A stretch of DNA of 64,000 bases from Limimaricola soesokkakensis (lineage in GTDB: Bacteria; Pseudomonadota; Alphaproteobacteria; Rhodobacterales; Rhodobacteraceae), in contig NZ_FWFY01000003.1 of NCBI RefSeq assembly GCF_900172345.1, forward strand, positions 1 through 64,000, in the 5' to 3' direction. This document shows positions 13,818-31,085 of this stretch, piece by piece; the stretch's first letter is position 1; the number at the start of each line of letters is the position of its first letter. Below the pieces are notes generated by a model, which was given only the letters and a program-made list of their open reading frames with translations, had not been told where the DNA came from and did no database searches. The position numbers and the translations under genes are program-made.

Positions 13818-14737
13818 TGGCCGCCTACGTCTTCCGCCGCCTGATCGTCTCGGTGCTGATCCTGCTCGGCGTATCCTTCATCACCTTTTTCCTGCTCTAC
13901 GCGCTCCCCGCCGATCCGGTGCGCCAGATCGCCGGGCGTTCGGCCACTGCGCAGACGGTCGAAAACATCCGCCAGCAGCTCGGTCTCGATCAGCCGCTTC
14001 TGGTGCAGTATTGGCGCTACCTCACTGGCTTGGTGCAGGGCGATCTCGGCCGCAGCTACTTGCAGCGCACCGATGTCGGCACACTGATCGCGGCACGGCT
14101 TCCGGCATCGCTGCTGCTGATGGCGGGCGCGATCGGCTGCGAGCTGGTGCTGGGGCTCACGATGGGTGTGATCGCTGCGTTGAAGCGCGGGACCGCCACC
14201 GACCAGTCGCTGATGATCGCGAGCTTCGTCGGCGTCTCGGCGCCGCAATTCGTGGTCGGCCTTCTGCTTCTCTACGTCTTCGCGGTGCAGCTTGGCTGGT
14301 TTCCGATCGGAGGCTACGGAACCTGGGCGCATCTGGTTCTGCCTTCCCTCACGCTCGGCATCATGGGGTCGGGCTGGTACAGCCGTATGATGCGCTCCTC
14401 GATGGTCGACGTGCTCCGCGCCGATTACATCCGCACCGCTCGCGCAAAGGGACTGACGCGGCGCCGGGTGATCCTGCGCCATGCACTGCCCAATGCGATC
14501 CTACCGGTCATCGCGATGATCGGCATCGACATCGGCATCTTCATGGGTGGCATCGTCGTGGTTGAGAGCGTGTTCGGCTGGCCAGGCATCGGGCAGCTTG
14601 CTTGGCAGGCGATCCAGCGCGTCGACATCCCGATCATCATGGGCGTCACGCTGGTTTCGGCCTGCGCCATCGTGCTGGGCAACCTCCTGGCCGATCTCGT
14701 CACCCCCCTCATCGATCCGCGCATCAAGCTGCGTTGA
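13817..14737 (+). CDS. dppB: Peptide/nickel-type ABC transporter permease, DppB/OppB family
   Basis: 306-residue permease with a first helix at about 10-30, a long periplasmic loop starting ALPADPVRQIAGRSA, then five helices. The coupling loop reads RADYIRTARAKGLTRRRVIL, and GWPGIGQLAWQAI near the C-terminus is typical of DppB. Its start codon shares a base with the dppC stop, so translation is coupled. Forms the channel with DppC. Confidence 0.9.
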   Translation: MAAYVFRRLIVSVLILLGVSFITFFLLYALPADPVRQIAGRSATAQTVENIRQQLGLDQPLLVQYWRYLTGLVQGDLGRSYLQRTDVGTLIAARLPASLLLMAGAIGCELVLGLTMGVIAALKRGTATDQSLMIASFVGVSAPQFVVGLLLLYVFAVQLGWFPIGGYGTWAHLVLPSLTLGIMGSGWYSRMMRSSMVDVLRADYIRTARAKGLTRRRVILRHALPNAILPVIAMIGIDIGIFMGGIVVVESVFGWPGIGQLAWQAIQRVDIPIIMGVTLVSACAIVLGNLLADLVTPLIDPRIKLR

Positions 14738-14782
14738 GACCCCGCACGACCAATCAACAAAAGACCTAACAGGAGAGTGAGA

Positions 14783-16411
14783 ATGAAACGACTGCTGACC
14801 TCGACGGCGCTAATCGCCGCGCTCGCCATGCCCGCCATCGCGCAGGATTACACGCCCGACCCGAACGCCCAGCCGGGTGGGGCTATCACCATCACCTACA
14901 AGGACGATGTCGCCACGCTCGACCCGGCTATCGGCTATGACTGGCAGAACTGGTCGATGATCAAGTCGATCTTCGACGGGTTGATGGATTACATCCCCGG
15001 CACCACCGAGCTGCGCCCGGGTCTTGCCGAGAGCTACGAGATCTCGGAGGATGGATTAACTTATACCTTCAAGCTGCGCGATGGCGTAACCTTCCATAAT
15101 GGTCGCGAGATGACGGCCGAGGACGTGAAGTACTCGCTCGACCGCGTCACCGACCCCGAGACCCAGTCGCCCGGCGCCGGTTTCTTCGGAGCGATCGAGG
15201 GCTATGATGCCGCTGCTTCCGGCGAGGCCGAGGGACTGTCGGGCGTGAAGGTGATCGACGACCAGACCATCGAGATCACCCTGACCCGGCCCGATGCCAC
15301 CTTCTTGCACGTGATGGCGCTGAACTTCGCCTCCGTCGTGCCACAGGAGGCGGTCGAGGCAGCAGGCGGTGATTTCGGCAAGGAGCCTGTCGGCACCGGC
15401 GCTTTCAAGCTCGGGGAGTGGACGATCGGCCAGCGGCTGGTGTTCGAGAAATTCGAGGACCATTGGCGCGAAGGCGTGCCCTATCTTGACCAGATCACCT
15501 TCGAGGTCGGACAGGAGCCCATCGTGGCGCTTCTGCGCCTTCAGAACGGTGAGGTCGACGTGCCCGGTGACGGCATCCCGCCTGCCAAGTTTGTCGAAGT
15601 GATGAACGATCCGGCCCAAGCCGAGCGCGTGGTCGAAGGCGGCCAGCTGCACACCGGTTACATCACCATGAACACCCAGATGCCGCCGTTCGACGATGTG
15701 AAGGTGCGCCAAGCGGTGAACATGGCGATCAACAAGGACCGGATCATCCAGATCATCAACGGTCGCGCCGTACCGGCCAATCAACCGCTGCCGCCTTCCA
15801 TGCCGGGCTACACCGAGAACTACGAGGGCTATCAATACGACATTGAGGCAGCCAAGGCCCTGCTGGCCGAGGCGGGTCACCCGGACGGCTTCGAGACCGA
15901 GCTGTTCGTTATGAATACCGATCCCAATCCGCGTATCGCGCAGGCAATCCAGCAGGATCTCAAGCAAATCGGGATCGATGCTTCGATCCAAAGCCTCGCG
16001 CAGGCCAACGTGATCGCCGCGGGCGGCGAGAAGGAGCAAGCGCCGATGATCTGGTCGGGCGGCATGGCCTGGATCGCCGACTTCCCAGATCCGTCGAACT
16101 TTTACGGCCCGATCCTCGGCTGCGCCGGCGCGGTCCCGGGCGGCTGGAACTGGTCTTGGTACTGCAACGAGGAACTCGACGCGATGGCCGCTGAGGCGGA
16201 CTCCATGGCCGATCCCGAGCAGGCCGAGGAGCGACTGGGCAAGTGGTCCGACGTCTATATGAAGGTCATGGAGGACGCGCCTTGGGTGCCGGTGTTCAAC
16301 GAGCAGCGCTATACCATGAAGTCCGAGCGCATGGGTGGCGATGACGCGCTCTATGTCGACCCGGTCTCGATCCCGGTGAACTACGACTACGTCTACGTGA
16401 CCGAGCAGTAA
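14783..16411 (+). CDS. dppA: ABC transporter substrate-binding protein, family 5 (DppA/OppA type)
   Basis: 542-residue exported receptor. Signal peptide MKRLLTSTALIAALAMPAIA with cleavage near AIAQD and no lipobox Cys. The family-5 solute-binding fold follows, with YTFKLRDGVTFHNGREMTAEDVKYSLDR split only by ordinary residues (about 95-120) and the C-terminal APWVPVFNEQRY. AGGAG before the ATG at 14783 favours it over a GTG six bases earlier. It captures the cargo for the DppBC permease; placement between permeases and formamidase suggests an amide-containing ligand. The next gene starts two bases downstream. Confidence 0.9.
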   Translation: MKRLLTSTALIAALAMPAIAQDYTPDPNAQPGGAITITYKDDVATLDPAIGYDWQNWSMIKSIFDGLMDYIPGTTELRPGLAESYEISEDGLTYTFKLRDGVTFHNGREMTAEDVKYSLDRVTDPETQSPGAGFFGAIEGYDAAASGEAEGLSGVKVIDDQTIEITLTRPDATFLHVMALNFASVVPQEAVEAAGGDFGKEPVGTGAFKLGEWTIGQRLVFEKFEDHWREGVPYLDQITFEVGQEPIVALLRLQNGEVDVPGDGIPPAKFVEVMNDPAQAERVVEGGQLHTGYITMNTQMPPFDDVKVRQAVNMAINKDRIIQIINGRAVPANQPLPPSMPGYTENYEGYQYDIEAAKALLAEAGHPDGFETELFVMNTDPNPRIAQAIQQDLKQIGIDASIQSLAQANVIAAGGEKEQAPMIWSGGMAWIADFPDPSNFYGPILGCAGAVPGGWNWSWYCNEELDAMAAEADSMADPEQAEERLGKWSDVYMKVMEDAPWVPVFNEQRYTMKSERMGGDDALYVDPVSIPVNYDYVYVTEQ

Positions 16412-16412
16412 G

Positions 16413-17372
16413 ATGTGCCAGAACTGCGACTACACGATCCATGGTGCGCAGCATCATTTCGGCTGGGACAATTCCATTGCCCCGGTCGAAAGGGTGGAGC
16501 CCGGCGCGCAGATCGCCTTCCACTGTATGGATTCATCGGCGGGCCAGCTCGGCCCGTCGAGCACGGTCAAAGACGTAGAGACTCTCGACTTCGGCAAGAT
16601 CAACCCGGTCTCGGGTCCCATCTATGTCGAAGGGGCCGAGCCGGGGGACGCTCTGAAGATCACCATCGACAGCTTCGCCCCGCGCGAGGCCGAGGGCTCG
16701 GCCTGGGGCTGGACCGCCAACATTCCGGGCTTCGGCCTTCTGGCGGACCAGTTCACCGACCCAGCGCTGACGATCTGGAAATACGATGCGAGAACGCTCG
16801 AGCCCGCGCTGTTCGGCGAGCATGGCCGAGTACCGCTCAAGCCGTTCTGCGGCACCATCGGCAACGCGCTGGCAGAGCCGGGGGGACATTCGATCGTGCC
16901 GCCGCGCCGGGTCGGCGGCAATCTCGACATTCGCGATCTCGCCGCGGGCACCGTGCTCTATCTGCCGGTCGAAGTCGCCGGGGCGCTGTTCTCCGTCGGG
17001 GACACCCATGCGGCGCAGGGTGACGGCGAGGTTTGCGGCACCGCGATCGAGAGCCCGATGTACGCAGTGCTTACGATCGATCTTGTGAAGGACGCGCAGC
17101 TGAAGTTCCCGCGCTTCACGACGTCGGGACCGGTGACGCGGCATCTCGATGCCAAGGGCTACGAAGTGACGACCGGCATCGGGCCGGATCTGATGACCGC
17201 CTCGCGTGATGCTGTGGCGGGGATGGTCGACCACCTCTGCGCCACGCGGCAGATGGCGGCGGTCGATGCCTACATGCTCGTCTCGACCTGTGGCGATCTC
17301 AGAATCTCGGAAATTGTCGACCAGCCGAACTGGGTGGTGAGCTTTTACTTCCCGCGCTGTGTGTTCGAATGA
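16413..17372 (+). CDS. fmdA: Acetamidase/formamidase family protein
   Basis: 319-residue member of the FmdA/AmdA family, which hydrolyses formamide, acetamide or related short amides to ammonia and the acid. Visible family signs: NPVSGPIYVEGAEPGDAL, PFCGTIGNALAEPG, and GDTHAAQGDGEVCGTAIESP, whose His and Glu belong to the metal/active-site region. Length is below the roughly 400 residues of classical formamidases and matches the shorter acetamidase subgroup. It follows dppA by one base and overlaps the ATPase gene by ATGA, so import and hydrolysis are made together. The natural amide is not evident. Confidence 0.88.
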   Translation: MCQNCDYTIHGAQHHFGWDNSIAPVERVEPGAQIAFHCMDSSAGQLGPSSTVKDVETLDFGKINPVSGPIYVEGAEPGDALKITIDSFAPREAEGSAWGWTANIPGFGLLADQFTDPALTIWKYDARTLEPALFGEHGRVPLKPFCGTIGNALAEPGGHSIVPPRRVGGNLDIRDLAAGTVLYLPVEVAGALFSVGDTHAAQGDGEVCGTAIESPMYAVLTIDLVKDAQLKFPRFTTSGPVTRHLDAKGYEVTTGIGPDLMTASRDAVAGMVDHLCATRQMAAVDAYMLVSTCGDLRISEIVDQPNWVVSFYFPRCVFE

Positions 17373-19153
17373 ATGCCGCCGTCACGAAGCTGTCCGGGGC
17401 TGAAAGGGCCCCGGATACCAACCCGCCGGTGCTTTCCGTAGAGGAACTCAAGATCTCAGTGCGCACCAGCGAGGGCCCCCGCCTGCTGGTGCAGGATCTC
17501 TCATTCGACCTGGCGCGTGGTGAGACACTGGCCATCGCGGGTGAGAGTGGGTCAGGGAAGTCCCTCACCTCGATGGCGATCATGGGGCTTCTGCCACCGC
17601 CTGCCGTCCATGTTTCGGGCGGTCGCATCCGACTTGGAGAGACCGATCTCCTGAGTCTGTCTGAGCGGCGGATGCGCGCGCTGCGTGGTGCGCGCATCGC
17701 GATGATCTTTCAAGAGCCGATGACCTCGCTCAACCCGGTGCTGACCATTGGTCATCAGCTGATCGAGGCGATCGAGGCGCATGAGACCTTGTCACGGCGT
17801 GAAGTGCGGGCTCGGGCGATAGAGGCGCTACGCGCGGTACGAATGTCGCAGCCCGAGGCGCGACTGAAACAGTATCCGCATGAGTTGTCGGGCGGTATGC
17901 GCCAACGGGTCATGATCGCCATGGCGATTGCGCTCAGACCCGATGTGCTGATCGCTGACGAGCCGACTACTGCGCTCGATGTGACGGTGCAGCGCGAGGT
18001 TCTGGAGCTGCTGCGCGATCTACAGCGGGACCTTGGCACCGCCGTTATCCTAATCACCCACGACATGGGGGTGGTGGCCGAGATGGCTGACCGCGTGGTT
18101 GTCATGCAGGCAGGCCGCATGGTCGAACAGGGGCCGGTGCAAGAGATCTTTGCAGCACCGAAAGAACCATATACCCGCGCGCTGCTGGCAGCAGTGCCCC
18201 GAATGGGGCGCGGGGAAGGGGCAGGCGCACCCAGCACGGCAGTGCCGGTGGCACGGGTCGAGGATCTGCGGGTGCGCTTCGACATTCGAGGGGGCATTCT
18301 GAACCGGCCCACCCACGCGGTGCACGCGGTGGCGGGCGTCAGCTTCGAGATCCGTGCTGGCGAGACCTTCTCGTTGGTAGGGGAATCCGGCTGCGGCAAG
18401 TCAACCATTGCAAAGGCCCTCACCGGGCTGGTGCCGTTCGAGGGCTTGTTGGAAGTGGCCGGTCGCAGGCTTGTGAGCGGCCAGCGGCCTGACACGGCCT
18501 TTCGCCGCGGCGTTCAGATGATCTTCCAAGACCCCATGGCCTCGCTCGACCCTCGGATGCGGGTAGGCGACCTTGTGGCTGAACCGCTGGTCATCCACGG
18601 CATCGGCTCCGCTCAGGAGCAGCGCGTCCAGGTTGAGGCGCTCTTCGAGCGCGTGGGGTTGGAGCGAGACCAACTCGACCGCTATCCCCACGAATTCTCG
18701 GGCGGACAGCGGCAGCGTATTTGCATCGCACGCGCGCTGGCTCTGCGGCCGCGGTTGATCATCGCTGATGAAAGCGTTTCGGCGCTCGACGTCAGCGTAC
18801 AGGCCCGGGTTCTTGAGTTGCTCAAGGCCCTGAAAACCGAGTTCGGCATCGCCTATCTGTTCATCAGCCATGACATGGCCGTGGTTGAGAACGTCTCCGA
18901 CCGGGTTGCGGTAATGCGACTGGGCCAGATCGTCGAAATGGGCACGCGTGCGCAGCTGTTTGGCGATCCGCGACACCCCTATACCCGCCAGCTTATCGCC
19001 GCCGTGCCGGTCCCTGACCCCACCCGGGTACCGCCACCGTTCTCCAGGCCACAGGGCGAAGTGCCGAGTCCCGTATTGCGGCGTGGCATGGAGCCTCAAA
19101 TCGAAGCACTGGCTGACATTGGGGAAGGGCACATGGTGGCCAAATTTGGGTAA
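17369..19153 (+). CDS. dppDF: Fused double ATPase of peptide-type ABC transporter (DppD-DppF)
   Basis: 594 residues carrying two complete ABC ATPase domains in one chain. Domain 1 (about 20-275): Walker A GESGSGKS, signature LSGGMRQR, Walker B VLIADEPTTALD. Domain 2 (about 300-560): Walker A GESGCGKST, signature FSGGQRQR, Walker B LIIADESVSALD, where the usual Pro is Ser. Oligopeptide-transport linkers close both halves (EPYTRALLAAVP and HPYTRQLIAAVP). Powers uptake through DppBC. Last gene of the operon. Confidence 0.92.
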   Translation: MNAAVTKLSGAERAPDTNPPVLSVEELKISVRTSEGPRLLVQDLSFDLARGETLAIAGESGSGKSLTSMAIMGLLPPPAVHVSGGRIRLGETDLLSLSERRMRALRGARIAMIFQEPMTSLNPVLTIGHQLIEAIEAHETLSRREVRARAIEALRAVRMSQPEARLKQYPHELSGGMRQRVMIAMAIALRPDVLIADEPTTALDVTVQREVLELLRDLQRDLGTAVILITHDMGVVAEMADRVVVMQAGRMVEQGPVQEIFAAPKEPYTRALLAAVPRMGRGEGAGAPSTAVPVARVEDLRVRFDIRGGILNRPTHAVHAVAGVSFEIRAGETFSLVGESGCGKSTIAKALTGLVPFEGLLEVAGRRLVSGQRPDTAFRRGVQMIFQDPMASLDPRMRVGDLVAEPLVIHGIGSAQEQRVQVEALFERVGLERDQLDRYPHEFSGGQRQRICIARALALRPRLIIADESVSALDVSVQARVLELLKALKTEFGIAYLFISHDMAVVENVSDRVAVMRLGQIVEMGTRAQLFGDPRHPYTRQLIAAVPVPDPTRVPPPFSRPQGEVPSPVLRRGMEPQIEALADIGEGHMVAKFG

Positions 19154-19289: not shown

Positions 19290-20645
19290 TTAACCCAGCG
19301 CGCGTTCGAAGTAGTCAACCGATCCGAGCTGCCCTCCCTTGAGGGCAAGTTCGAGGCCGGCAAAGCTGGGATCATCGGTGTGAACGCGGCACAGAGGCGC
19401 ACCCGGGCTAATATGCGCCAACATTTCCAGCGCCTTGACTGGAAGGGTTTCGACGACCCGGCCCGAGGTGTCGCCGCCCGCCACGACCATTCGCCTAAGC
19501 TCGAAACGCGGCACGGCCTCCAACGCAATCTGCGCCAGGAGGTTGCCAATCGCCTCTTGGGCATCGCCAAAGGTGCCTTTGTTGCTCCTCGCATGTCTCT
19601 TGAGTGCTTCGAAGGCTGGATCGTCGACTGTTCGCGCTGCGTAAATGACCACGCCTTTAGCGCTTTCAAAGGACCGCTCGGCTTCCGTGAGAAGACGTGC
19701 TTTCTCCGTAAGGGCCGTGCTTTTTTCTTGGGCGGCGATAACGTCGAGCCGCAGCAAAGCGAAGCCCGCCTTTTCCGCAGCTTCGATCTGTTCGGATGTT
19801 ACCGGCGAGCAGCTTCCGGAAAGGACGAGCAGACGCTTTGTAGGTTTGGGGGAGGGCATGACCGGCGCGGTCTCTGCAACGAGCCCGATGCGGCGCCAGT
19901 GCGAGACCAGGGCATACTGGAGCCCCGAAGATGATGGGGAGAACACTGGCCCGTCCCGATGGCCCCAGACCAGTTCTCCAGCCTTCTGCTGACTGATCTC
20001 GTCCGCGACATCGATGAACGTGATTGCTCGGCGCTCCCGGGCTTCCGCGAGCCGTTTGATGTCGTCGCCGCGCGCCATGTCACCAAGGTCGACGGATCGG
20101 GTTTCGATATGTGTCTGAAGCCCAATATGGTGCCGTAAGTCGGCCTCCCGCATCGGGGTCACAGGGTGGCGCGACATCGTAGGATGACGGTCGATGCGAT
20201 AGGTCGTACCGCCGGCTGCCGCGAACAGGTTGGAGAACGCCTGCCAACGGCCAAGCTGCGGGGCGCCTACGATTGATGGAGCCCAATCGGGGCGCAAGTA
20301 GCGGCGTGCGATCTCCGTTGCCCGACCAATCGATCCAACTTCGGGGGCGGAATCGAATGTGGAGCAAACTTTGTATTGGAGGATGGGCGGCTCCAGTTCC
20401 GCGAGCCTTGCCAAAATGGGCCCCAAATGGGCTTCCATCCATTCAGGGTTGCGCGCGCGGGACGTGCCGGCGACCCCGATAACCGGGCAATCCTCGAACT
20501 CGGCCAAATCGGCCTCCGTGGGAGGAGTGGTGAAGAGCACGGTGCGCAATCCGGCACGTGCGGTGACTTCCATTGCATCGGTGGAGCCCGTGAAGTCATC
20601 CCCGTAGAAGGCGAGCAGGAGATCCGTGGAGCGGTTATGGGTCAT
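19290..20645 (-). CDS. Four-carbon acid-sugar kinase family protein (DUF1537, OtnK/OiaK-like)
   Basis: 451-residue ATP-dependent kinase. The N-terminal FYGDDFTGSTDAMEV is the DUF1537 signature; the C-terminal nucleotide domain shows VVAGGDTSGRVV and ISPGAPLC. Family members phosphorylate 3-keto acid sugars such as 3-oxo-tetronates (OtnK, DtnK) or 3-oxo-isoapionate (OiaK). The start at 20645 overlaps the stop of the RuBisCO-like gene by ATGA; the frame continues 81 codons inside that gene without cause. Kinase plus RuBisCO-like protein recalls OiaK and OiaX, in which the phosphorylated keto acid is the substrate of the RuBisCO-like enzyme. Confidence 0.87.
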   Translation of the reverse strand: MTHNRSTDLLLAFYGDDFTGSTDAMEVTARAGLRTVLFTTPPTEADLAEFEDCPVIGVAGTSRARNPEWMEAHLGPILARLAELEPPILQYKVCSTFDSAPEVGSIGRATEIARRYLRPDWAPSIVGAPQLGRWQAFSNLFAAAGGTTYRIDRHPTMSRHPVTPMREADLRHHIGLQTHIETRSVDLGDMARGDDIKRLAEARERRAITFIDVADEISQQKAGELVWGHRDGPVFSPSSSGLQYALVSHWRRIGLVAETAPVMPSPKPTKRLLVLSGSCSPVTSEQIEAAEKAGFALLRLDVIAAQEKSTALTEKARLLTEAERSFESAKGVVIYAARTVDDPAFEALKRHARSNKGTFGDAQEAIGNLLAQIALEAVPRFELRRMVVAGGDTSGRVVETLPVKALEMLAHISPGAPLCRVHTDDPSFAGLELALKGGQLGSVDYFERALG

Positions 20646-21895
20646 TTGAAGGCCTCCAATGCCGTGGCGAGTTCCGGCGTGTCTTTCGCCGCCTCGGCCA
20701 ACGTGGTCCCTGCTTGTGCGGCCTCCCAAGCCGCACGCATTGCTGCCACTCCGGCCGGCACGCCGCCCGGATGAGCGACGATGCCGCCTCCGGCGCAATG
20801 GATGAGATCGGCGCTTCCAACCCGCTGCCAGGTTTCGGGCACCTGCCGAATGGTCTGTCCAGACGAGAAGACCGGCATTGCCTGCCAAGCTCGTTCGGGG
20901 AAGAGAGGAGAAAGACAGGCACGGGCAGACGAGACTACGCTGTCGTCATCCTCCCAGAACTTGTTGGCGAGCGCGTTCACATGCAGATGGTCGACACCAG
21001 CCACGCGCCAGATCTTCTGCCAAGCTTGGAAACCCCAACCGTTGTCCGGGGATCGCCCGAGATAGCCCCAGCCGTTTCTATGGCCGTGGATTGGCAAACG
21101 GGCATGGGAGCGCAGGGCAGCGAGACCGACCACGCCGAGGCTGTTCAAGCTGACCATCACGCAGGTGCCACCCATTTCGGCGACGATATCATGCTTGCGA
21201 CGCATCTCATCGATCTCGTCGGTGATGTTGACTGCATACATCACTCTCTTGCCTGTGCGCTGCGCATGGGCATCGATGACACGGAGGACCGAGCGGGCCC
21301 GCTCGTCGAAGGGGCAGGCCGGACCGTCAGCTTGGAGCTCGTCGTCCTTGATGAAGTCGATTCCGCCCTGGCAAAGCTCTTCGACAAGCTCCGCCGTATC
21401 TTGTGGGCTGAGCCCAACGGAAGGCTTGATGATCGTGCCGATGAGGGGCTTGCTCGCTTCCACGCCAGACAGCTCCCGGGTGCCAGAGATGCCGAAAGCG
21501 GGGCCTGCGTATCGATCTAAGAAGACTTCCGGCAGATCTATGTCGAGCAACTTCAGGCCGGCGACCTCGCGCAGCTCGTAAAGATTGCCCGCAAGGGTGG
21601 CCATGAGGTTGGGCAGGGACGGCCCGATATTCGCGAGGGGCCACGTAATTCTTAGACGAAAACTGCGAAGCTCGCCGTCACCGGTCGCCCCCGGCAGGGG
21701 CGGCGCACCGCTGTCCTCGATTTCCTCGAGAGCTTCCACTCGCGCGGCGGCGCGTTTGGTCAGTTCAGCGGTTTCGCCGGGGAGGCTGACAAAGGTACCG
21801 GAAGACTGCTCGCCGGCGATCACCTTCGCCGCACGCTCAGGGTCGAGGCGTGTCCGCAGTAGGTAGGTCGCGCCAATCCGGTCTACTTCGCTCAT
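20642..21895 (-). CDS. RuBisCO-like protein (form IV), probable OiaX-type enzyme
   Basis: 417-residue RuBisCO large-subunit homologue. Most catalytic positions are kept: Glu29 and Asn104 (counterparts of Glu60 and Asn123), Lys157 in IIKPSVGLS (Lys175), the carbamylated-Lys triad Lys183-Asp185-Glu186 in GGIDFIKDDE, His272-Arg273, His305, Lys312, and the phosphate-binding Ser345-Gly346 and GGG near 369. The Lys177 position is Ser159, which argues against true RuBisCO activity. RuBisCO-like proteins act in methionine salvage or on acid-sugar phosphates; next to a DUF1537 kinase the latter is likely, as for 3-oxo-isoapionate-4-phosphate transcarboxylase/hydrolase. It is joined by ATGA overlaps to both neighbours. 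Confidence 0.88.
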   Translation of the reverse strand: MSEVDRIGATYLLRTRLDPERAAKVIAGEQSSGTFVSLPGETAELTKRAAARVEALEEIEDSGAPPLPGATGDGELRSFRLRITWPLANIGPSLPNLMATLAGNLYELREVAGLKLLDIDLPEVFLDRYAGPAFGISGTRELSGVEASKPLIGTIIKPSVGLSPQDTAELVEELCQGGIDFIKDDELQADGPACPFDERARSVLRVIDAHAQRTGKRVMYAVNITDEIDEMRRKHDIVAEMGGTCVMVSLNSLGVVGLAALRSHARLPIHGHRNGWGYLGRSPDNGWGFQAWQKIWRVAGVDHLHVNALANKFWEDDDSVVSSARACLSPLFPERAWQAMPVFSSGQTIRQVPETWQRVGSADLIHCAGGGIVAHPGGVPAGVAAMRAAWEAAQAGTTLAEAAKDTPELATALEAFK

Positions 21896-22845
21896 GTCTG
21901 GGTCCCTGCAAGCCACTCGTGGTAATCGGACAGCCCTTCCCGAATATCGGTGAATCTCGGCGTGAACTTCAGGCGCTGCCGGGCTTTCGAAATGTCGAGG
22001 GGTGCGCCGCGGCTGAAGTACTGGCCCGAACCGAGCCTCATCGCTGCCTCACGACCCGTGAGCAATTCCACGTGTTCGATGATCTCTCGGTGATTGGTTG
22101 CTACGCCGCAGGAGATGTTGAAGGCCTCGCCCGGCTCTACCTGGGGCGCATCCAGCAGGCGGATTACGCCCTGAGCGGTATCCCTCACGTGCGTCCAGTC
22201 GAGGCTCTGGTCGCCGCCATTTGCGACTTCAATGCCAGTAAGTCCCTCCAGCCCGCCGAACATCGCCTTGTAAAGGGGATGCATCGTTGAGGGACGTTTG
22301 CCCGGGCCGTAGACAAAATAAAGGCGAGCTTGCCTCACATCGATGCCGTAAGTGAGGGAGTACTGCTGCGCGAGAACCTCGTTGGCAACCTTCGTGGCAC
22401 CGTAGAGATCTGTGGCCTTGAACGGCAGATCCTCCGTCTGGCCGCCCGGCTGGTTACCATAAACAGCGCCGGAACTGAGGTTGATGAATTTCGGCACACC
22501 GAGAATCCGGCAAGCGTCGATCACGTTCAGCATGCCGGTTGTGTTGATGCCGATGTTACGGAAGGGCCGGTTTTGGAACGTCGGACCGGCGATCACCGCT
22601 ACCCCGAAGATGGCCGCCGAGATGCGTCCTTCATAGGCGCGCATCCGCTCGAACAGCGTATGCGTGTCGAGAACGTCGACATTCTCGAACCGGATGTTCG
22701 GAAGATGAGGTTCGAGGTAGTCGAGCTCCAGTCCCTCAATGTCCGAGGCACGATCGAACACCACGACCTCCTCGCCGCGTTCAGCAAGATCATGCACGAT
22801 CCAGGAGCCAACATGGCCCAAACCGCCGAAAACGAGTGTCGTCAT
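21892..22845 (-). CDS. NAD-dependent epimerase/dehydratase (extended SDR)
   Basis: 317-residue extended SDR. The Rossmann motif is FGGLGHVGSWIV near the N-terminus, followed by acidic VVVFDRASD, which favours NAD. The catalytic Tyr-Lys pair is in DLYGATKVANE and the Ser in NLSSGAVYG. Relatives include sugar-nucleotide epimerases and D-erythronate dehydrogenase (DenD). In this operon it probably oxidises the imported acid sugar to the keto acid that the kinase then phosphorylates. The ATG at 22845 has weak upstream purines but gives the exact Rossmann start. Ends inside the start of the RuBisCO-like gene. Confidence 0.86.
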   Translation of the reverse strand: MTTLVFGGLGHVGSWIVHDLAERGEEVVVFDRASDIEGLELDYLEPHLPNIRFENVDVLDTHTLFERMRAYEGRISAAIFGVAVIAGPTFQNRPFRNIGINTTGMLNVIDACRILGVPKFINLSSGAVYGNQPGGQTEDLPFKATDLYGATKVANEVLAQQYSLTYGIDVRQARLYFVYGPGKRPSTMHPLYKAMFGGLEGLTGIEVANGGDQSLDWTHVRDTAQGVIRLLDAPQVEPGEAFNISCGVATNHREIIEHVELLTGREAAMRLGSGQYFSRGAPLDISKARQRLKFTPRFTDIREGLSDYHEWLAGTQT

Positions 22846-22872
22846 GAGTATCTCCAGTAATTGGTCGGCGCT

Positions 22873-24165
22873 TCAGCGCAGCAGAAGGCCGGGCACGAAG
22901 AGCACCACCGCCGGCACGAAAGTGATCAGCAGCAGCATCGCGAACAACGGAAGGTAGAAAGGCATCAGCTCTCGAAGGAGCTCGATGTAAGAGATGCCCG
23001 CAACGCGCTGCACGGTGAATAGCACCGTTCCCACCGGCGGGGTGACCAGGCCGATCATCAGGTTAAAGATCATCGCGACACCGAAATGCACCGGATCGAT
23101 CCCGTAGCTCGTGACCAGAGGAACCAGAATTGGGGTCAACAGGAACAGTGCCGGGACTGAGTCGATGAAACAGCCGATCACGAGGATGAACAGAAGCAGC
23201 AGCGCAAGCAGAAGGGCGGGGCTGGTCACCGTCGCCGACATGGCATCGATGATCTGCGAGGTCACCTGGTAGCGCGCCAGAACCCAAGCATAGAGAGCAG
23301 AGCCAGCTATGATCAGCAACAGGGCCGACGTGTCGATCGCAGTTTCCCGGCAGATCCGCCAGAAGCTTGTCAGGGTGATCGTCCGGTAGACCAGAGCCGC
23401 GATAAGCAGGCAGTAGACCAGTGCGATCACCGAGGCTTCGGTCGGTGTGAAGATACCTGATAGGATGCCGCCGATGATGATGATTGGCGTAAGCATGGGG
23501 AGTATCCCCTGCATGAGCGCCGCTGCGAACTCCATGAGCGTTGCCCGGCTCGCGACCGGGTAGCCGCGGCGTCGCGAGATCACCGCGACGACCGCCATCA
23601 ACGCCAGTCCCATCAGCAGGCCCGGCAGGATCGAGCCCAAGAAGACCGCAGCGATCGAGACGTTGGCCAAAGCTCCGTAGATGACAGCCGGGATAGAGGG
23701 TGGAATGATTGGTCCGATTGTGGCCGAGCTGGCCGTAACAGCGGCCGAGAAGCCGCGGCCGTAACCGTCGCGCTCCATCGCGCGCATCTGAACCGGGCCG
23801 AGTCCGCCTGCATCGGCAACTGCCGATCCTGACATTCCGGCGAAGATCATGCTGGAGAGAACATTGACATGGCCCAGGCCGCCCCGCAGGTGGCCGACGG
23901 CCACGCGCGCCACGTTGAACACCCGGTCCGAAATGCCGGACTCGTTCATTAGCTTGCCGATGAGTAGGAAGGCGGGGATTGCAAGAAGGGTGAAGCTGTT
24001 GACACCGTAAAGCGTCCGCTGCGCCAGCATCTCGAGCGGGAGATCTGTGAAACCCCGGTTGACCCCGAGGACCACGACGGAGGCCCCGATCATCGAGAAA
24101 CCGACCGGGACACCAATGAACATCAAGACCAGCAAGGTCCCGAAGAGGGCGATCAGGATAGTCAT
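22873..24165 (-). CDS. dctM: TRAP transporter large permease, DctM type
   Basis: 430-residue polytopic membrane protein of the DctM family, with about 12 helices; GVPVGFSMIGASVVVLG at the start, GPIIPPSIPAVIYGALAN mid-protein and GLVTPPVGTVLFTVQR near the end are family hallmarks. Works with the DctQ and DctP proteins encoded just upstream. Nine bases separate it from dctQ and 27 from the SDR gene, so transport and catabolic genes form one unit. Confidence 0.9.
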   Translation of the reverse strand: MTILIALFGTLLVLMFIGVPVGFSMIGASVVVLGVNRGFTDLPLEMLAQRTLYGVNSFTLLAIPAFLLIGKLMNESGISDRVFNVARVAVGHLRGGLGHVNVLSSMIFAGMSGSAVADAGGLGPVQMRAMERDGYGRGFSAAVTASSATIGPIIPPSIPAVIYGALANVSIAAVFLGSILPGLLMGLALMAVVAVISRRRGYPVASRATLMEFAAALMQGILPMLTPIIIIGGILSGIFTPTEASVIALVYCLLIAALVYRTITLTSFWRICRETAIDTSALLLIIAGSALYAWVLARYQVTSQIIDAMSATVTSPALLLALLLLFILVIGCFIDSVPALFLLTPILVPLVTSYGIDPVHFGVAMIFNLMIGLVTPPVGTVLFTVQRVAGISYIELLRELMPFYLPLFAMLLLITFVPAVVLFVPGLLLR

Positions 24166-24174
24166 GTGGGGGTC

Positions 24175-24675
24175 CTATTGCGCTTGGCTGCCGGTCAGGC
24201 GCCGAATGAGATCGCGGGCCACAAGGAGCGTGTAAAGTCCGATGCCGAGGCCTTGGACCGCGTAGATGGCAGCCATGGTGATCGGCAGGGTGCTCGCTTT
24301 CACGTTGCTGGTGCGCAACGTCATCTCGTAGGTGCCCACCAGCAACGCCAGCGCGGTCAAGAGCAGGAGCAGGTCCGCGAGGCTGGCGACAATGCGTGAA
24401 ACCGCCGGCGGCAGCAGGTCGAGGAGCAGTGTCACTCGAATATGCGCGCCGTGTCGTTGGGCAATGGCGGCGCCGAGAAAGATCTGCCCTATGTAAAGAA
24501 AACGGGCGGTCTCGTCGGTCCAGGGAACGCCAATACCTAAAGCGTATCGCGACACCACCTGCACAAACATTGCCGCGAGCATGCCCAGGAAGATCAGGAT
24601 GACGATCCCCTCGAGTACCTGCCAGAAGCGGTTGGGGGGCGGTTCATGTGCTTCCAGTATCGACGTCTCAGTCAT
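24175..24675 (-). CDS. dctQ: TRAP transporter small permease, DctQ type
   Basis: 166-residue small membrane subunit with four helices (about 22-42, 60-78, 100-120, 138-158) and a DctQ-type VPWTDETARFLYIGQIFLGA segment after helix 2. It connects the binding protein and DctM of the same operon. GGGAGG just upstream of the ATG at 24675 supports the start. Confidence 0.87.
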   Translation of the reverse strand: MTETSILEAHEPPPNRFWQVLEGIVILIFLGMLAAMFVQVVSRYALGIGVPWTDETARFLYIGQIFLGAAIAQRHGAHIRVTLLLDLLPPAVSRIVASLADLLLLLTALALLVGTYEMTLRTSNVKASTLPITMAAIYAVQGLGIGLYTLLVARDLIRRLTGSQAQ

Positions 24676-24731
24676 GCTTCGACCTCCCTCGAAGAATGCG
24701 GCCCGCCGGATCGGCGGGCCGGCTGGTCACG

Positions 24732-25697
24732 TCAGTCGATATGAGACAGCACGTAATCGCGCACTTCAGGCGCGAAGCCCTCGGCTACGCGGCGGATGGC
24801 CGGAATGGCCTTCTCGCGGAAGGCGGCCACGTCGGGCTCGACCACCTCCATGCCTTCTTCTTTCAAGGTAGCGAGGATTTTCTCCTCGTTTTCACGGACC
24901 AGCTCGTCGCCCCAGCCGACGGCTTCGTCAATCGCTCCCTGAATCAGCGTGCGATCCTCGTCCGAAAGCCCAGCGTAGAATTCCTCGTTGATTAGCCAAT
25001 GAAAGAAGGAGTGCACATGCTGGGTGCGGTTCAGATAGTTCTGCACCTCGTAAAGGCGGCCGTTGTAGATCAGCGAAACCGGGTTTTCCTGCATGTCAAT
25101 CACCCCGGTCTGGAGCGACGTGTAGACCTCAGGCCAAGCGATCGGGCTCGGAAGTGCGCCGATTTCGCTCCAGATCTCGACCCAAGGCTCGATCTCCGGA
25201 AGCCTCAAACGCACGCCCTGCACATCGTCCGGGCCCTGAACCGGTTCGCGTGACGTGAGGTTTCGGGGGCTCCGCATGGACAGGCCGACCAACCGCAAGT
25301 TGCCATTGGCCACCAGCGCCTCGTTGATGAAACCCCCAATGTCGCCTTCGTAGACTTGGCGTGCTTGATCACTGCTGGAATAGACAAAGGGCAGGTCGGC
25401 CGCGGCATATTCAGGCGCGTAGAGGGTCATCGGCATCGAGCCACCGAGGGCGATCGTATACTCGCCGATGCTTGCACCCTCGAGGTGATCGCGCTCGCCT
25501 CCCACCTCCGTACCGAGCAAGGTGACCGTGTAGCGTCCGTCCGTCTCGTCCTCGATCTTCTCCTTCAGGCGTTCTCCCACTTGGAACATCTCGTGGCCCG
25601 GATCGACATGTAGCGCGATCGAGATTTCCTCGGCCATGAGTGGCGTTCCGGCAAAAGCAACGCCGGCCAGTAGTGCGGCGATGGCGGTCGATTTCAT
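24732..25697 (-). CDS. dctP: TRAP transporter substrate-binding protein, DctP type
   Basis: 321-residue periplasmic receptor with a signal peptide MKSTAIAALLAGVAFAGTPL cleaved near LMAEE. The DctP core shows VRLRLPEIEPWVEIWSEIGA, where the first Arg is the usual carboxylate clamp, and PIAWPEVYTSLQTGVIDMQE. The ligand is thus probably a carboxylate, fitting a sugar acid. GGGAGG lies eight bases before the ATG at 25697; the frame reaches five codons further but lacks a better site. First gene of the operon, reading away from the FadR-type regulator. Confidence 0.9.
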   Translation of the reverse strand: MKSTAIAALLAGVAFAGTPLMAEEISIALHVDPGHEMFQVGERLKEKIEDETDGRYTVTLLGTEVGGERDHLEGASIGEYTIALGGSMPMTLYAPEYAAADLPFVYSSSDQARQVYEGDIGGFINEALVANGNLRLVGLSMRSPRNLTSREPVQGPDDVQGVRLRLPEIEPWVEIWSEIGALPSPIAWPEVYTSLQTGVIDMQENPVSLIYNGRLYEVQNYLNRTQHVHSFFHWLINEEFYAGLSDEDRTLIQGAIDEAVGWGDELVRENEEKILATLKEEGMEVVEPDVAAFREKAIPAIRRVAEGFAPEVRDYVLSHID

Positions 25698-25773: not shown

Positions 25774-25788
25774 ACTGGTCATACCAGT
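25774..25788. promoter_or_regulatory. FadR/GntR-type operator, perfect palindrome
   Basis: ACTGGTCATACCAGT is a perfect dyad with six-base arms around CAT and contains the FadR-subfamily core TGGT-N3-ACCA. It lies 77 bases before dctP and 90 bases before the regulator gene, in the shared promoter region. The regulator very likely binds here. Confidence 0.8.
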
Positions 25789-25792
25789 AGAC

Positions 25793-25803
25793 CGTATGAC
25801 CTG
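25793..25803 (-). promoter_or_regulatory. Second, degenerate GntR half-operator
   Basis: On the minus strand GGTCATACG repeats the core of the palindrome at 25774-25788, inverted and centred 16 bases away. GGTCATAC (25778-25785) and GTATGACC (25794-25801) form an inverted repeat. It may let two regulator dimers bind side by side. Confidence 0.5.
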
Positions 25804-25877
25804 TTGCATTCGTGAGTGAATGATGATGATCTTGTCAAGGCATTCTTCGACGGATGCGAAAGACATTGGAGGGTGCC

Positions 25878-26648
25878 ATGGCGGGGATCAGTGACGGGAG
25901 CCGAACGGGGCAGGGTGACGGGCGCCGGATCGTTCGCCGCCGGCGTATGCACGAAGATCTCGTCGAGATGCTGGCCACTGACATCTGCGACGGGGTCTAC
26001 CCGGTCGGCGATTGTCTGCCCTCGGAACGTGCTCTCATGGAGGAATTCGGCGTATCGCGATTGACGGTCCGCGAGGCCACTGCCGCCCTCGAGGCGCGGG
26101 GATTGATCGAAACCCGGCCCGGTTCACGCGCACGCGTGTGTGGCCCACGCACTGACTTCCTGCTCACTATGTTGTCACAGACCGCAACGTTCTACCTGCG
26201 GCAACCCGGCGGCCTAACCTCGTTCTCCGAAGTGCGGCAGCTTGTGGAGACGGGAGTGGTCCGCCTCGCCGCGCAGCGTGCGACGAAGCAGGATATTCAG
26301 GATCTTAAGGAACGGCTCGACGCGAACCGCGCGGCAATCGGCGATACCGCGCAGTTCGGCGCGACCGATATGGAATTCCACGCAGCGATTGCTGCTATTG
26401 TCGGCAATCCGATCCTGTCCGGTTTTTTCCGCGCACTTGACAGGTGGCTTCAGGAGGTGCGCACGACCAGCCTCAGATTGGATGGTCAAACCGAAACGGC
26501 CTATCGCGCCCATGTCGAGATTTACGAGGCGATTGCCGCGAAGGACCCTGATCGCGCGGATCGTGCCATGCGGCATCACCTTGAACAGCTGCAAAGCATC
26601 TATCCCGAGGCACTTGCTGCTGATGCTGACAAGGACAGCGCGGCATGA
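25878..26648 (+). CDS. FadR-subfamily GntR transcriptional regulator
   Basis: 256 residues. The N-terminal winged helix has IVRRRRMHEDLVEMLATDIC, then LPSERALMEEFGVSRLTVREA as the helix-turn-helix. A helical FCD effector domain follows (about 90-245) with Asp/His positions in TDMEFHAAIAAIVGNPIL and YRAHVEIYEAI that commonly bind a metal and a carboxylate ligand. GGAGGG five bases before the ATG at 25878 favours it over an ATG at 25854. It is divergent from the TRAP/acid-sugar operon and very probably represses it until the sugar acid or an intermediate binds. Confidence 0.88.
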   Translation: MAGISDGSRTGQGDGRRIVRRRRMHEDLVEMLATDICDGVYPVGDCLPSERALMEEFGVSRLTVREATAALEARGLIETRPGSRARVCGPRTDFLLTMLSQTATFYLRQPGGLTSFSEVRQLVETGVVRLAAQRATKQDIQDLKERLDANRAAIGDTAQFGATDMEFHAAIAAIVGNPILSGFFRALDRWLQEVRTTSLRLDGQTETAYRAHVEIYEAIAAKDPDRADRAMRHHLEQLQSIYPEALAADADKDSAA

Positions 26649-26836: not shown

Positions 26837-27817
26837 TCATGCCGCCGTCTGGCGATGCAGCGAACGGCGCTTTTCGATGGTCCTGGCTTTGATCTCCTTT
26901 CGTCGATTGAGGATGGTGTCGGCCCTGCCGAGATAGACGTCGACAGGGGCGAGATTGCCGAGGCTCTCGTGATAGCGGTGATGGTTGTAGTGGTCGACGA
27001 AAGCCGCCACGGCCTCTTCGAGCGCCCCGGGCAGGTAGTAGTTCTCGAGCAGGATGCGGTTCTTCAGGGTCTGGTGCCAGCGTTCGATCTTGCCTTGGGT
27101 CTGGGGGTGGTTCGGGGCGCCGCGAACATGGTCCATGCCTTTGTCACCGAGCCAACCGGCCAGTTCCCCGGAGATGTAGCTGCTGCCATTGTCGCTGAGC
27201 AGCCGGGGCCGGTGGGCGACGGTAGCCCGATCGCAGCCCGAGGCGACCAGCGCATCTTCCAGCGTCGCGGTCACATCCGCCGCTTTCATCGTCGTGCAGA
27301 GCCGCCAGGCGACGACGTAGCGGCTGTAGTCGTCGAGGATGGTCGAGAGGTAGAACCAGCCCCAGCCGATGACCATCAGATAGGTGAAGTCGGTCTGCCA
27401 GAGCTGGTTTGGCCGGGTCGTCTTCTCGTGGAACTCGTCCGCCGCCTTGATCACCACGAAGGCCGGGCTGGTGATCAGGTCGTGGGCCTTTAGAACCCTG
27501 TAAACGCTGGCCTCGGACACGAAGTAGCGCCGGGTGTCGGTGAAGCGGGCGGCGAGCTCCCGGGGTGACAGCTCGGGCTGCTCCAGGGCCAGATCGACGA
27601 TCTGCTCGCGCACCTTATCGGGAATCCGGTTCCAGACCCGGCTCGGTCGCGAGGGCCGGTCCTCGAGCCCGGCGGGGCCAAGCGACACGTAGCGATCATA
27701 CCAACGGTAGAAGCTCGTGCGCGGCACGCCGATCATGTCGAGGGTCCGCTTCGCCGGCAGGTGTGAGCGTTCCACCTGCCGGATGATCTCGAGCTTCTCG
27801 GAAGCGGGATATCTCAT
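26837..27817 (-). CDS. IS3-family transposase OrfB
   Basis: 326-residue integrase-core transposase. The N-terminal helix-turn-helix segment (LPAKRTLDMIGVPRTSFYRW) and HTH_21-like region precede the DDE catalytic core: Asp in WQTDFTYLMV, Asp in LLSDNGSSYISG, Glu in TQGKIERWHQTLKN. The ATG at 27817 overlaps the orfA stop as ATGA; IS3 elements normally make an OrfAB fusion by -1 frameshifting upstream of that overlap. OrfB itself looks intact, while OrfA does not. Confidence 0.87.
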   Translation of the reverse strand: MRYPASEKLEIIRQVERSHLPAKRTLDMIGVPRTSFYRWYDRYVSLGPAGLEDRPSRPSRVWNRIPDKVREQIVDLALEQPELSPRELAARFTDTRRYFVSEASVYRVLKAHDLITSPAFVVIKAADEFHEKTTRPNQLWQTDFTYLMVIGWGWFYLSTILDDYSRYVVAWRLCTTMKAADVTATLEDALVASGCDRATVAHRPRLLSDNGSSYISGELAGWLGDKGMDHVRGAPNHPQTQGKIERWHQTLKNRILLENYYLPGALEEAVAAFVDHYNHHRYHESLGNLAPVDVYLGRADTILNRRKEIKARTIEKRRSLHRQTAA

Positions 27818-28225
27818 GCCTCGTCTCCCCCATCCCCGAGCATGCTTTTTTTGAGCAAGCGGTTCTCCAGGGTGAGATCGGCCACCGCCTCCTTCAGCGC
27901 CGAGGCCTCGTGCCGCAGCTCCCTGACCTCGGGGCTGGTGGCCTGGCGGGCCGTGTCGCCCGCGAGCCGCTTCTTGCCGGCCTCGAGGAACTCCTTCGAC
28001 CAGCTGTAATAGAGGCTCGTGGCAATCCCCTCGCGCCGGCAGAGCTCGGCATTCGCCATTGTCGCTCGGACCGATGGCGCGACATGGCTCATTGTCCTCG
28101 CCGCGCAGCCCATCCAGAACGATGCGGATCTTCTCCTCGGCCGAATGGTGCTTCCGCGTGCGCCGACGGATGTCCTTCACCAGCGACTCCGCCGTCGATC
28201 TGGCTGTTCCGGGTTTCTGTCTCAT
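27814..28225 (-). pseudogene. IS3-family OrfA, frameshifted
   Basis: The N-terminal part (MRQKPGTARSTAESLVKDIR and the HTH start to GLRGEDN) is in one frame; the rest (AELCRREGIATSLYYSWSK to LLKKSMLGDGGDEA, including the leucine-zipper region) is in another. At the break, near 28050-28090, GACAATG occurs twice 33 bases apart, as if a short duplication had been added, and the frame is lost. Without an intact OrfA the element probably cannot move by itself, unless translation restarts at an internal ATG. Confidence 0.7.
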
Positions 28226-28309
28226 CTCCACTCCTCGGTGGTTACGATGAGCCAGAAACCCTCCGTTACAAAATCAACTCAGATGTCCCAGAGGCGCTGA
28301 CGGGGGACA

Positions 28310-29542: not shown

Positions 29543-30593
29543 GGCGATGTTGCACAAAGCAGCCTCGGGCATGACTGCCCCCTTTCCCGCATTTCTTCAG
29601 CGGACGGCTTCGATCTCGGCCCTGCCGAGGGCCGAGAAGCGGTTCATGATGGCGATGCGGATCTGGATTTCGGCGGTTTGGCGGTCAGGATCTCGTGACA
29701 TGATCCTCTCGCCGAAGAGCTTCAGGCAGTTCATCATGGCCTCGACCCGACTTCGGACGTGATAGCCGGTCCACTTCTTCCAGAGCGTCCGGCCCAAGCG
29801 TCTGGTTGCCCGCAGGATCTCGTTTCGCGCGGTGGCAGCGAAGCAGTCTTCTTTCCAGGCACGGCCATTGCGCCGGATTGGTATGACAGCGTCGGCACCT
29901 CGATCGATGATGGCGCCATGGCAGCGGCGCGTGTCGTAAGCGCCATCCGCGGTGACCACGCCGATCGTCTCCTCCGGGGGGATCTGCGCCAGCAGCTCCG
30001 GCAGCAGCGGGCTGTCGCCTTGGCGGCTCGAGGTGAACTCGACTGCGCGCACGTCCCCGGTGCCCGCGTCCATGGCAATATGAACCTTTCTCCATTGCCT
30101 GCGACGTGACGGGCCATGCTTGCGGGCCTGCCACTCACCATCACCGCGGAACTTGATGCCGGTGCTGTCGACGAGCAGGTTCAGCGGCTGTCCTGATGCG
30201 CGATACGGGACCTGCACCGCGATCCGCGCCTGCCGGCGACACAGCGTCGAATAGTCCGGAACCGGCCAATCCAGCCCCGCCATCTGGATCAGGCTCTCGA
30301 TCAGCCCGACCGTCTGCCGGAGCGGAAGCCCGAAGAGCACTTTCAGGGTGAGGCATGTCTGGATCGCAGCGTCTGAGAAGGTCTCGGGCCGCCCACGCCT
30401 GCCGGTCTTGCCGGCGTGCCAGACCATCTCGGGGTCGAACCAGACCGACAGCGAGCCGCGCTTGCGCAGCGCCGCGTTGTAGTCGGACCAGTTCATCGTG
30501 CGATAGCGGGTCGGGGAAGGCTTCGGCATGCCCTCGAGCTAACCCTCAGGGCGCGCCCAGTGAATCCCCATCACCGATATGTGCAACAGCGCC
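29543..30593 (-). mobile_element. IS5-family insertion sequence (IS427-like ends)
   Basis: About 1.05 kb. Left end GGCGATGTTGCACA (29543-29556) and the complement of the right end GGCGCTGTTGCACA (30580-30593) are near-identical inverted repeats of the GTTGCACA type seen in IS427-group elements. It carries one transposase. The exact outer base and target duplication cannot be fixed: AT flanks both sides. It abuts the truncated hsdS. Confidence 0.82.
29597..30529 (-). CDS. IS5-family transposase
   Basis: 310-residue DDE transposase. An N-terminal DUF772-type domain (MNWSDYNAALRKRGSLSVWF; FSDAAIQTCLTLKVLFGLPL) precedes the catalytic core, with Asp in NLLVDSTGIKFRG, Asp in VVTADGAYDTRRC and Glu in HVRSRVEAMMNCLKLFGERI. 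It looks complete, so the element may be active. Met-12 is an alternative start. Confidence 0.88.
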   Translation of the reverse strand: MPKPSPTRYRTMNWSDYNAALRKRGSLSVWFDPEMVWHAGKTGRRGRPETFSDAAIQTCLTLKVLFGLPLRQTVGLIESLIQMAGLDWPVPDYSTLCRRQARIAVQVPYRASGQPLNLLVDSTGIKFRGDGEWQARKHGPSRRRQWRKVHIAMDAGTGDVRAVEFTSSRQGDSPLLPELLAQIPPEETIGVVTADGAYDTRRCHGAIIDRGADAVIPIRRNGRAWKEDCFAATARNEILRATRRLGRTLWKKWTGYHVRSRVEAMMNCLKLFGERIMSRDPDRQTAEIQIRIAIMNRFSALGRAEIEAVR

Positions 30594-31075: not shown

Positions 31076-31085
31076 GGAAGCGGTT

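Follow-up and report, generated by a model that had tools for sequence, protein, structure and literature searches.

A RuBisCO-like protein and a DUF1537 kinase in a TRAP transporter operon of Limimaricola soesokkakensis: a candidate route for tetronate-type acids

Which acid is degraded by an operon that combines a tripartite ATP-independent periplasmic (TRAP) transporter, a short-chain dehydrogenase/reductase (SDR), a RuBisCO-like protein (RLP) and a DUF1537 kinase, and what does the RLP, a member of a group in which few reactions are known, do there? The question is raised by the minus strand of Limimaricola soesokkakensis contig NZ_FWFY01000003.1, at positions 19290-25697 of the 64,000-nucleotide stretch analysed here (the window), where the list of open reading frames (ORFs) and inspection of the junctions give the order dctP-dctQ-dctM-SDR-RLP-DUF1537 kinase. 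Gene content, orthology, exchange of layouts and residue conservation are what we observed; all the reactions, the substrate and the products are what we infer from them. The answer that we favour, tentatively, is that the whole chain, the RLP as well, works on a linear tetronate, and the route from SDR to kinase to RLP seems likely to us. The genes are as follows.

24732..25697, minus strand: DctP, TRAP solute-binding protein (ATG at 25697; PF03480, 192 bits)
24175..24675, minus strand: DctQ, TRAP small permease (YiaM model, 52.7 bits, under the cut-off of 260; orthologues at 11/11 other loci)
22873..24165, minus strand: DctM, TRAP large permease (TIGR00786, 412.8 bits, over cut-off)
21892..22845, minus strand: extended (epimerase-type) SDR, predicted C3 dehydrogenase of a tetronate-type acid (PF01370, 128.9 bits)
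20642..21895, minus strand: RLP of an OiaT-like branch (PF00016, 223.9 bits, cut-off 30.1, and PF02788; trees; active-site tables)
19290..20645, minus strand: DUF1537 kinase, OiaK family (PF07005, SBD_N, and PF17042, NBD_C; kinase tree)
25854..26648, plus strand: GntR/FCD-family regulator, divergent from the operon (PF07729 and PF00392, over cut-off)

In the pathway that we propose, the GntR regulator would control an operon through which a four-carbon sugar acid, a tetronate, is taken up and degraded; DctPQM would import the acid. The SDR, with NAD+, would oxidize the C3 hydroxyl of the tetronate to the beta-keto acid 3-oxo-tetronate, and the OiaK-family kinase would phosphorylate the latter at O4. 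The carbamylated-lysine/Mg site of the OiaT-like RLP would then bind 3-oxo-tetronate 4-phosphate for breakdown by this enzyme, either alongside OtnC, a class II aldolase-type decarboxylase that is likewise encoded by the host, or in its place.

Gene layout around the transporter and the dehydrogenase

A preliminary description of this DNA, made from its letters alone, had proposed that the three enzymes are translationally coupled and follow dctPQM in one unit; ORFs and junctions confirm this, with an ATGA overlap at both the SDR/RLP and the RLP/kinase junctions and a gap of 27 nt between dctM and the SDR gene. That the unit is real is further established, beyond chance, by recurrence of the order regulator, dctPQM-SDR-RLP-kinase, with divergent regulator, at six other loci (L002, L003, L124, L132, L133 and L134), where its members are 49-81% identical to those of the window. 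Twelve loci, the window and 11 others, were gathered by searching with the RLP and the SDR; all have an orthologous regulator, TRAP transporter and SDR, the regulator adjoining the operon at all 11 others with 52-68% identity. The reading as a sugar-acid operon equipped with a dedicated TRAP transporter is supported.

What accompanies this constant set is exchanged. Six of the twelve loci (the window, L002, L003, L132, L133 and L116) have the RLP and the kinase only (layout A); four (L124, L134, L135 and L136) have RLP, kinase and OtnC, with no OtnK in the cluster (layout B); in two, L082 of Paroceanicella profunda and L125, OtnK and OtnC are found without an RLP (layout C). In both, the equivalog cut-offs are passed, with 549.9 and 552.3 bits for OtnK (cut-off 350) and 317.5 and 316.2 bits for OtnC (cut-off 250), and the identity to the window is 64-65% for the SDR, 68-72% for DctP and 77% for DctM. 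The plasmid of P. profunda, which the search covered, yielded no RLP. L116 and L082 share a divergent layout in which the same slot holds the RLP-kinase pair in L116 and the OtnK-OtnC pair in L082, and an unrooted tree of five SDR sequences puts these two together against the window, L002 and L003 (100/99). In a tree of SDR, DctM, DctP and regulator combined for the twelve loci, L116, L082 and L125 separate from the rest (100/100), and no fewer than three changes of layout label are required; L002 and L132 are almost identical.

The solute-binding protein of L082 is 67-71% identical to RLP-linked DctPs, which are 69-74% identical among themselves. For the SDRs the gap is somewhat larger, that of L082 being 64-68% identical to the RLP-linked ones and these 72-76% identical to each other. 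All layouts therefore probably import one and the same acid, and OtnK and OtnC of L082 and L125, being over their cut-offs, suggest 3-oxo-tetronate, or something closely analogous, as the product of the SDR. The preliminary description had supposed an entry substrate different from that of the OiaK/OiaX routes; it is these relatives, in which OtnK and OtnC take the place of RLP and kinase and which it did not contain, that point to a tetronate-type acid. Its order of events, oxidation, phosphorylation and then the RLP, remains plausible.

The SDR is an extended one by its PF01370 match and by the strings GGLGHVG, SSGA and YGATK, identical in five SDR sequences including that of the window, which we take to be the Rossmann glycine motif and the Ser-Tyr-Lys site. 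It is over no NCBIfam cut-off, the best match being galE at 89.4 bits (cut-off 262.3). Genes of this kind appear to be sparse: with five first-look candidates scored in most of the genomes listed, they were found in at least 1/390 genomes of the order, 1/385 of the class, 3/394 of the family of genome G773 and 6/394 of the family of G770, and the same-genus genome listed in the order sample (G236) showed none. A structure model of the SDR had a mean pLDDT of 48.2 and was not used. For DctP, the AlphaFold2 model (pLDDT 89.6) had 4pcd as its top Foldseek match; the nearest entries of sugar-acid type, at about 30% identity, are too distant to decide the ligand.

These layouts also bear on the proposal that the acid is a longer, branched one, such as hamamelonate, with the RLP acting as an oxygenase or a decarboxylase as in the D-hamamelose pathway of Ochrobactrum anthropi. 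The likeness lies in an RLP that ends a branched-sugar pathway, the O. anthropi rlp gene standing amid hamamelose genes as the last step, for which 3-phosphoglycerate and glycolate are named (PMC8914248, citing Kim 2018, in whose title the RLP is called an oxygenase). The operon of the window differs in its content and probably in its substrate: NCBIfam and Pfam scans show neither a lactonase nor a sugar dehydrogenase in it, and the OtnK and OtnC partners of L082 and L125 also speak against it. We regard the proposal as improbable.

Descent and active site of the RuBisCO-like protein

The RLP of A. radiobacter K84 is taken here to be OiaX and that of X. autotrophicus to be OiaT; ApnO is the name used for a PF16896 cluster with Pfam assigned for one representative, and the OiaT/OiaK branch of D-apionate catabolism is said to be that of Carter 2018. 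In the summary given in PMC6302742, the K84 enzyme decarboxylates 3-oxo-isoapionate-4-phosphate and the X. autotrophicus enzyme transcarboxylates and hydrolyses the same compound. The comparison with OiaK/OiaX made in the preliminary description was close, but it pointed to the wrong branch. The window RLP reaches 439 bits against the OiaX model (NF042437), a likeness at the level of the family, under the equivalog cut-off of 700, and is 46% identical to the annotated OiaX of Rhizobium bangladeshense; it is remote from OiaX in the tree too. The kinase likewise stays under the cut-offs of OiaK (534.5 bits, cut-off 700) and OtnK (189.8 bits, cut-off 350), being 29% identical to the OtnK of P. 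profunda.

Relatives of the RLP were examined at the best 80 of 495 confirmed loci, with gene tallies that are approximate, resting on a conservation-based selection of genes and including some short contigs. An ApnO-type PF16896 gene lies within about 9.5 kb at 50/80 of them, and at 19/80 there is a classical SDR within that distance and no ApnO-type gene, L003 among these having an epimerase-type SDR as well. The preliminary description had singled out the SDR as sole oxidoreductase. This holds in so far as the host genome (G000) gives no match to PF16896 (the genome of L011 served as positive control), but the arrangement is not isolated. For trees and residues, loci with less than 85% cover of RLP or kinase were dropped, which kept 79/80 RLPs and 68 kinases; the ApnO-linked set leaves out loci that bear both ApnO-type and SDRc genes, and includes L101 solely on account of what its neighbour is called and where it lies. 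The window RLP is about 60% identical to ApnO-linked RLPs. In a tree of 33 RLPs it falls in a clade of 11 rows (98/89) that is nested among them, distant from OiaX, and at all 11 loci an SDR is present and an ApnO-type gene absent from the stretch seen; a quick tree of 91 rows, which predates L116, groups the remaining 10 (99). A single clade of the four epimerase-SDR RLPs then known is missing from the best tree, yet it is unrejected (p-AU 0.313). Position among the ApnO-linked RLPs, which stand in for the X. autotrophicus enzyme, thus places the window RLP with OiaT, and the kinase groups with those of L002, L003, L004 and L032 (100).

At the active site, sixteen positions, given in RuBisCO numbering, were checked with a RuBisCO of the L003 genome (L103) as reference; the sequence pattern used did not locate T173. 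The window RLP keeps 14/16, carbamate lysine and Mg ligands included, and all ten RLPs of its group keep the equivalents of E60, T65, N123, K175, K201, D203, E204, H294, R295, H327, K334, S379, G403 and G404, single exceptions to N123 and G403 being seen among 37 other RLPs. At E60, N123, H327 and S379, where the window RLP has E, N, H and S, the residues of the six annotated OiaX are D, G, Q and G or C (6/6); ApnO-linked RLPs keep the first three in 50/50 and S379 in 48/50. Since these residues are kept in the window RLP and lost in OiaX, it could be capable of transcarboxylation and hydrolysis. Simple OiaX membership is ruled out by cut-off, tree and active site together.

Two other positions separate the group from both enzyme types. 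Position 15 (counted in 418 residues, as is 113) is E in 49/50 ApnO-linked RLPs and 6/6 OiaX, and R or D in 10/10 group RLPs; position 113 is S in 48/50 and S or T in 6/6, and A in 10/10. Because residues shared by the two enzyme types that use 3-oxo-isoapionate 4-phosphate are lost in the group, these changes hint at an altered substrate, for example one without the hydroxymethyl branch, it being understood that shared ancestry reduces the changes in ten RLPs to few events.

Several observations weigh against a linear acid. Placed by their trees, RLP and kinase come from the apionate (OiaT/OiaK-type) radiation. The two RuBisCO positions that are altered, K177 to S and W66 to F (checked in four group RLPs), are altered in the same way in all 50 ApnO-linked RLPs, and the window RLP keeps 133/140 columns that are near-invariant in these 50, as would fit an unchanged substrate. 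The kinases show no convergence on OtnK, which sides with the group at six positions and with apionate-type kinases at nine, and the SDR scores 39.4 bits against the D-erythronate dehydrogenase (ErythonDh) model, over residues 1-183 only, for a cut-off of 325.

It is therefore worth weighing the known OiaT reaction itself, in which the SDR would oxidize isoapionate (2-C-hydroxymethyl tetronate) at C3 to 3-oxo-isoapionate, the kinase and the transcarboxylating, hydrolysing RLP would follow, and OtnC would serve a second, linear acid sharing transporter and SDR. The products would presumably be glycolate and 3-phosphoglycerate. The nesting of RLP and kinase inside ApnO-linked sets, the 14 conserved positions and the conserved columns all argue for it, as do the two described reactions on the branched phosphate; near other RLPs the ApnO-type gene is replaced by classical SDRs, and a dual-substrate cluster would account for OtnC and RLP occurring together. 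It is countered by the changes at positions 15 and 113 in 10/10 group RLPs and by the OtnK and OtnC partners of L082 and L125. It is countered also by R. albus (L002), whose ApnO-type gene lies elsewhere in the genome: the two sets seem non-duplicate. We regard this explanation as possible rather than probable, ranking it close behind the tetronate.

The separate locus of R. albus (L115, 7579-11051) holds an ApnO-type gene, an RLP and a kinase, with TRAP genes near, besides the epimerase-SDR operon. Other RLP loci differ further. L110, L111 and L112 (Pseudosulfitobacter, Paracoccus and Azospirillum) have an RLP-kinase pair with TRAP, LacI and a VOC-family protein and no oxidoreductase adjoining the pair, and are possibly another RLP pathway. 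A Rhodococcus plasmid (L113, 6001-9638) carries an RLP, a DUF1537 kinase, an alcohol-dehydrogenase-like gene and a divergent GntR gene, with a KDG permease and a pyruvate kinase near. At the betaproteobacterial loci L026, L028, L034 and L050 a classical SDR gene directly precedes the RLP gene, which is followed by a gene for a kinase of low identity (36-38%) and by one of the peptidase-S66 type, L028 also having a single ORF that fuses a deaminase and an alpha/beta-hydrolase domain. On a Cupriavidus plasmid (L099, 949-8630), only a few genes separate eno-otnK-otnC and an SDR-hydrolase-RLP-kinase-TRAP set. In both L070 (11238-12615) and L081 (3888-5290) the match to the kinase is divided between two ORFs, from broken genes or assembly errors.

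OtnC and the last step

OtnC is over its cut-off in 11/11 searched genomes that have the epimerase-type SDR, inside the cluster or elsewhere, and a fourth enzyme may therefore take part, so that the word compact, which had been applied to the pathway, is perhaps too strong. In the family of G770 the background is 156/394 genomes, to be compared with 6/6 for those bearing the SDR (hypergeometric p 0.0036), three of the six carrying OtnC in the cluster. Its placing is complementary: OtnC is found elsewhere in the genome in 6/6 cases when the cluster is without it, as in the six layout-A genomes, where it occupies a separate locus, and in 1/5 when OtnC is already present there (one-sided Fisher p 0.015). 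The host genome contains one PF00016 protein and two DUF1537 proteins, the second of which belongs to a canonical L-threonate locus (L089, 6883-10452, on its contig C17) with LtnD (403.2 bits, cut-off 350), OtnK (544.7, cut-off 350), OtnC (302.6, cut-off 250) and an OtnI-like protein (258.8, under the cut-off of 325). The cluster kinase is the sole DUF1537 protein found in two layout-B genomes, G1188 and G1501, and hence probably makes the substrate of OtnC. This distribution suggests a pathway that needs OtnC, fed by an OiaK-like kinase.

These counts also tell against a tetronate chain that ends in the RLP, for an RLP doing the job of OtnC would be redundant if OtnC handles the intermediate; the statistics themselves are post hoc and small, include close relatives and take their background from one family. 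The simple notion that the RLP replaces OtnC is weakened by the four loci that have both, as well as by the presence of OtnC in 11/11 genomes. OtnC might then always be the final step, with the RLP acting upstream on the phosphate of the 3-oxo acid, as an isomerase or C2-epimerase with enolase-type chemistry. RLPs that abstract protons or isomerize are known (PMC10176493), and both the generality of OtnC and its complementary placing would agree with this, to which we nevertheless give little credence: the RLP keeps the equivalents of E60, N123, H327 and S379 that OiaX lost, which an epimerase would hardly need, and in the six genomes of layout A, OtnC has a locus of its own.

Returning to the tetronate chain, the fate of 3-oxo-tetronate 4-phosphate on the RLP may be conceived in more than one way. 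Re-carboxylation and hydrolysis after decarboxylation is possible, given that residues lost from OiaX, a plain decarboxylase, persist in this RLP; decarboxylation alone, to dihydroxyacetone phosphate, is a possible alternative. A specific version, in which the RLP would move CO2 within 3-oxo-tetronate 4-phosphate in the manner of OiaT, hydrolysis then giving 3-phosphoglycerate and formate, we think unlikely.

Regulation, surroundings and bearing on known pathways

The regulator scores 228.6 bits against the NanR subfamily model, for a cut-off of 260. Between it and dctP lies a candidate site:

25776..25801, no strand: putative operator, with TGGTCATACCA at 25776-25786 and the 8-bp inverted repeat GGTCATAC-N9-GTATGACC at 25777-25801

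The string TGGTNNNACCA occurs once in the whole 64 kb, at this place, and in the regulator-dctP intergenic region of 7/12 related loci, being absent from the other five; the regulator may, on this ground, bind there.

A recent gain of the operon is possible, in view of its G+C content of 61%, compared with 66% across the window, and of two transposase-like ORFs (26837-28231 and 29597-30529, read from translations) that follow the regulator. These ORFs lie between the regulator and a type I restriction region (30416-34097, read from translations), where an HsdR-like ORF (31086-34097) is preceded by a short ORF that resembles the C-terminal part of HsdS and adjoins a transposase-like ORF; the HsdS specificity gene looks interrupted. 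Downstream of the operon, on the opposite strand (13817-19153), are oligopeptide-type ABC transporter genes and a protein of the acetamidase/formamidase family (PF03069, 16413-17372).

How does the operon stand with respect to described systems? It resembles the OiaT/OiaK apionate branch in having an RLP followed by a DUF1537 kinase, and a NanR-like regulator. Unlike that branch, it has neither a GFO/IDH gene nor ApnL, an NCBIfam name for which the NCBIfam and Pfam scans covered the operon proteins; with PF16896 lacking from the genome, an epimerase-type SDR is there instead, and two RLP positions have changed throughout the group. With the OtnK/OtnC 3-oxo-tetronate pathways (NF043035 and NF043034, associated with LtnD/OtnI or D-erythronate dehydrogenase) it shares transporter, regulator and SDR, as two relatives pair these with OtnK and OtnC, and it departs from them by its RLP, by a kinase below the OtnK cut-off and by an SDR far from the D-erythronate dehydrogenase model. 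An L-threonate pathway is described in PMC12540250, and PMC8914248, in one sentence, names 'threonate and erithrose assimilation' among the roles of RLPs. The literature matches listed held no RLP acting on a tetronate and no such operon; Carter 2018, Zhang 2016 and Kim 2018 lay outside them and could contain part of this.

The consequences for the family are of several kinds. Naming by best hit would mislead annotation, since the top NCBIfam matches of the pair, OiaX and OiaK, are both below cut-off. The contrast in residues between OiaX and the branch of the window offers a direct test of plain decarboxylation against RuBisCO-like re-carboxylation and hydrolysis. The loci themselves provide a natural comparison, in which one constant set of regulator, transporter and dehydrogenase is combined with OtnK and OtnC, with RLP, kinase and OtnC, or with RLP and kinase, from which a short list of substrates and of proteins for side-by-side assay follows. 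Should the RLP yield 3-phosphoglycerate and formate, the organism would possess a carbon-conserving alternative to the CO2-losing OtnC, and the family would include an RLP that acts on an unbranched C4 acid.

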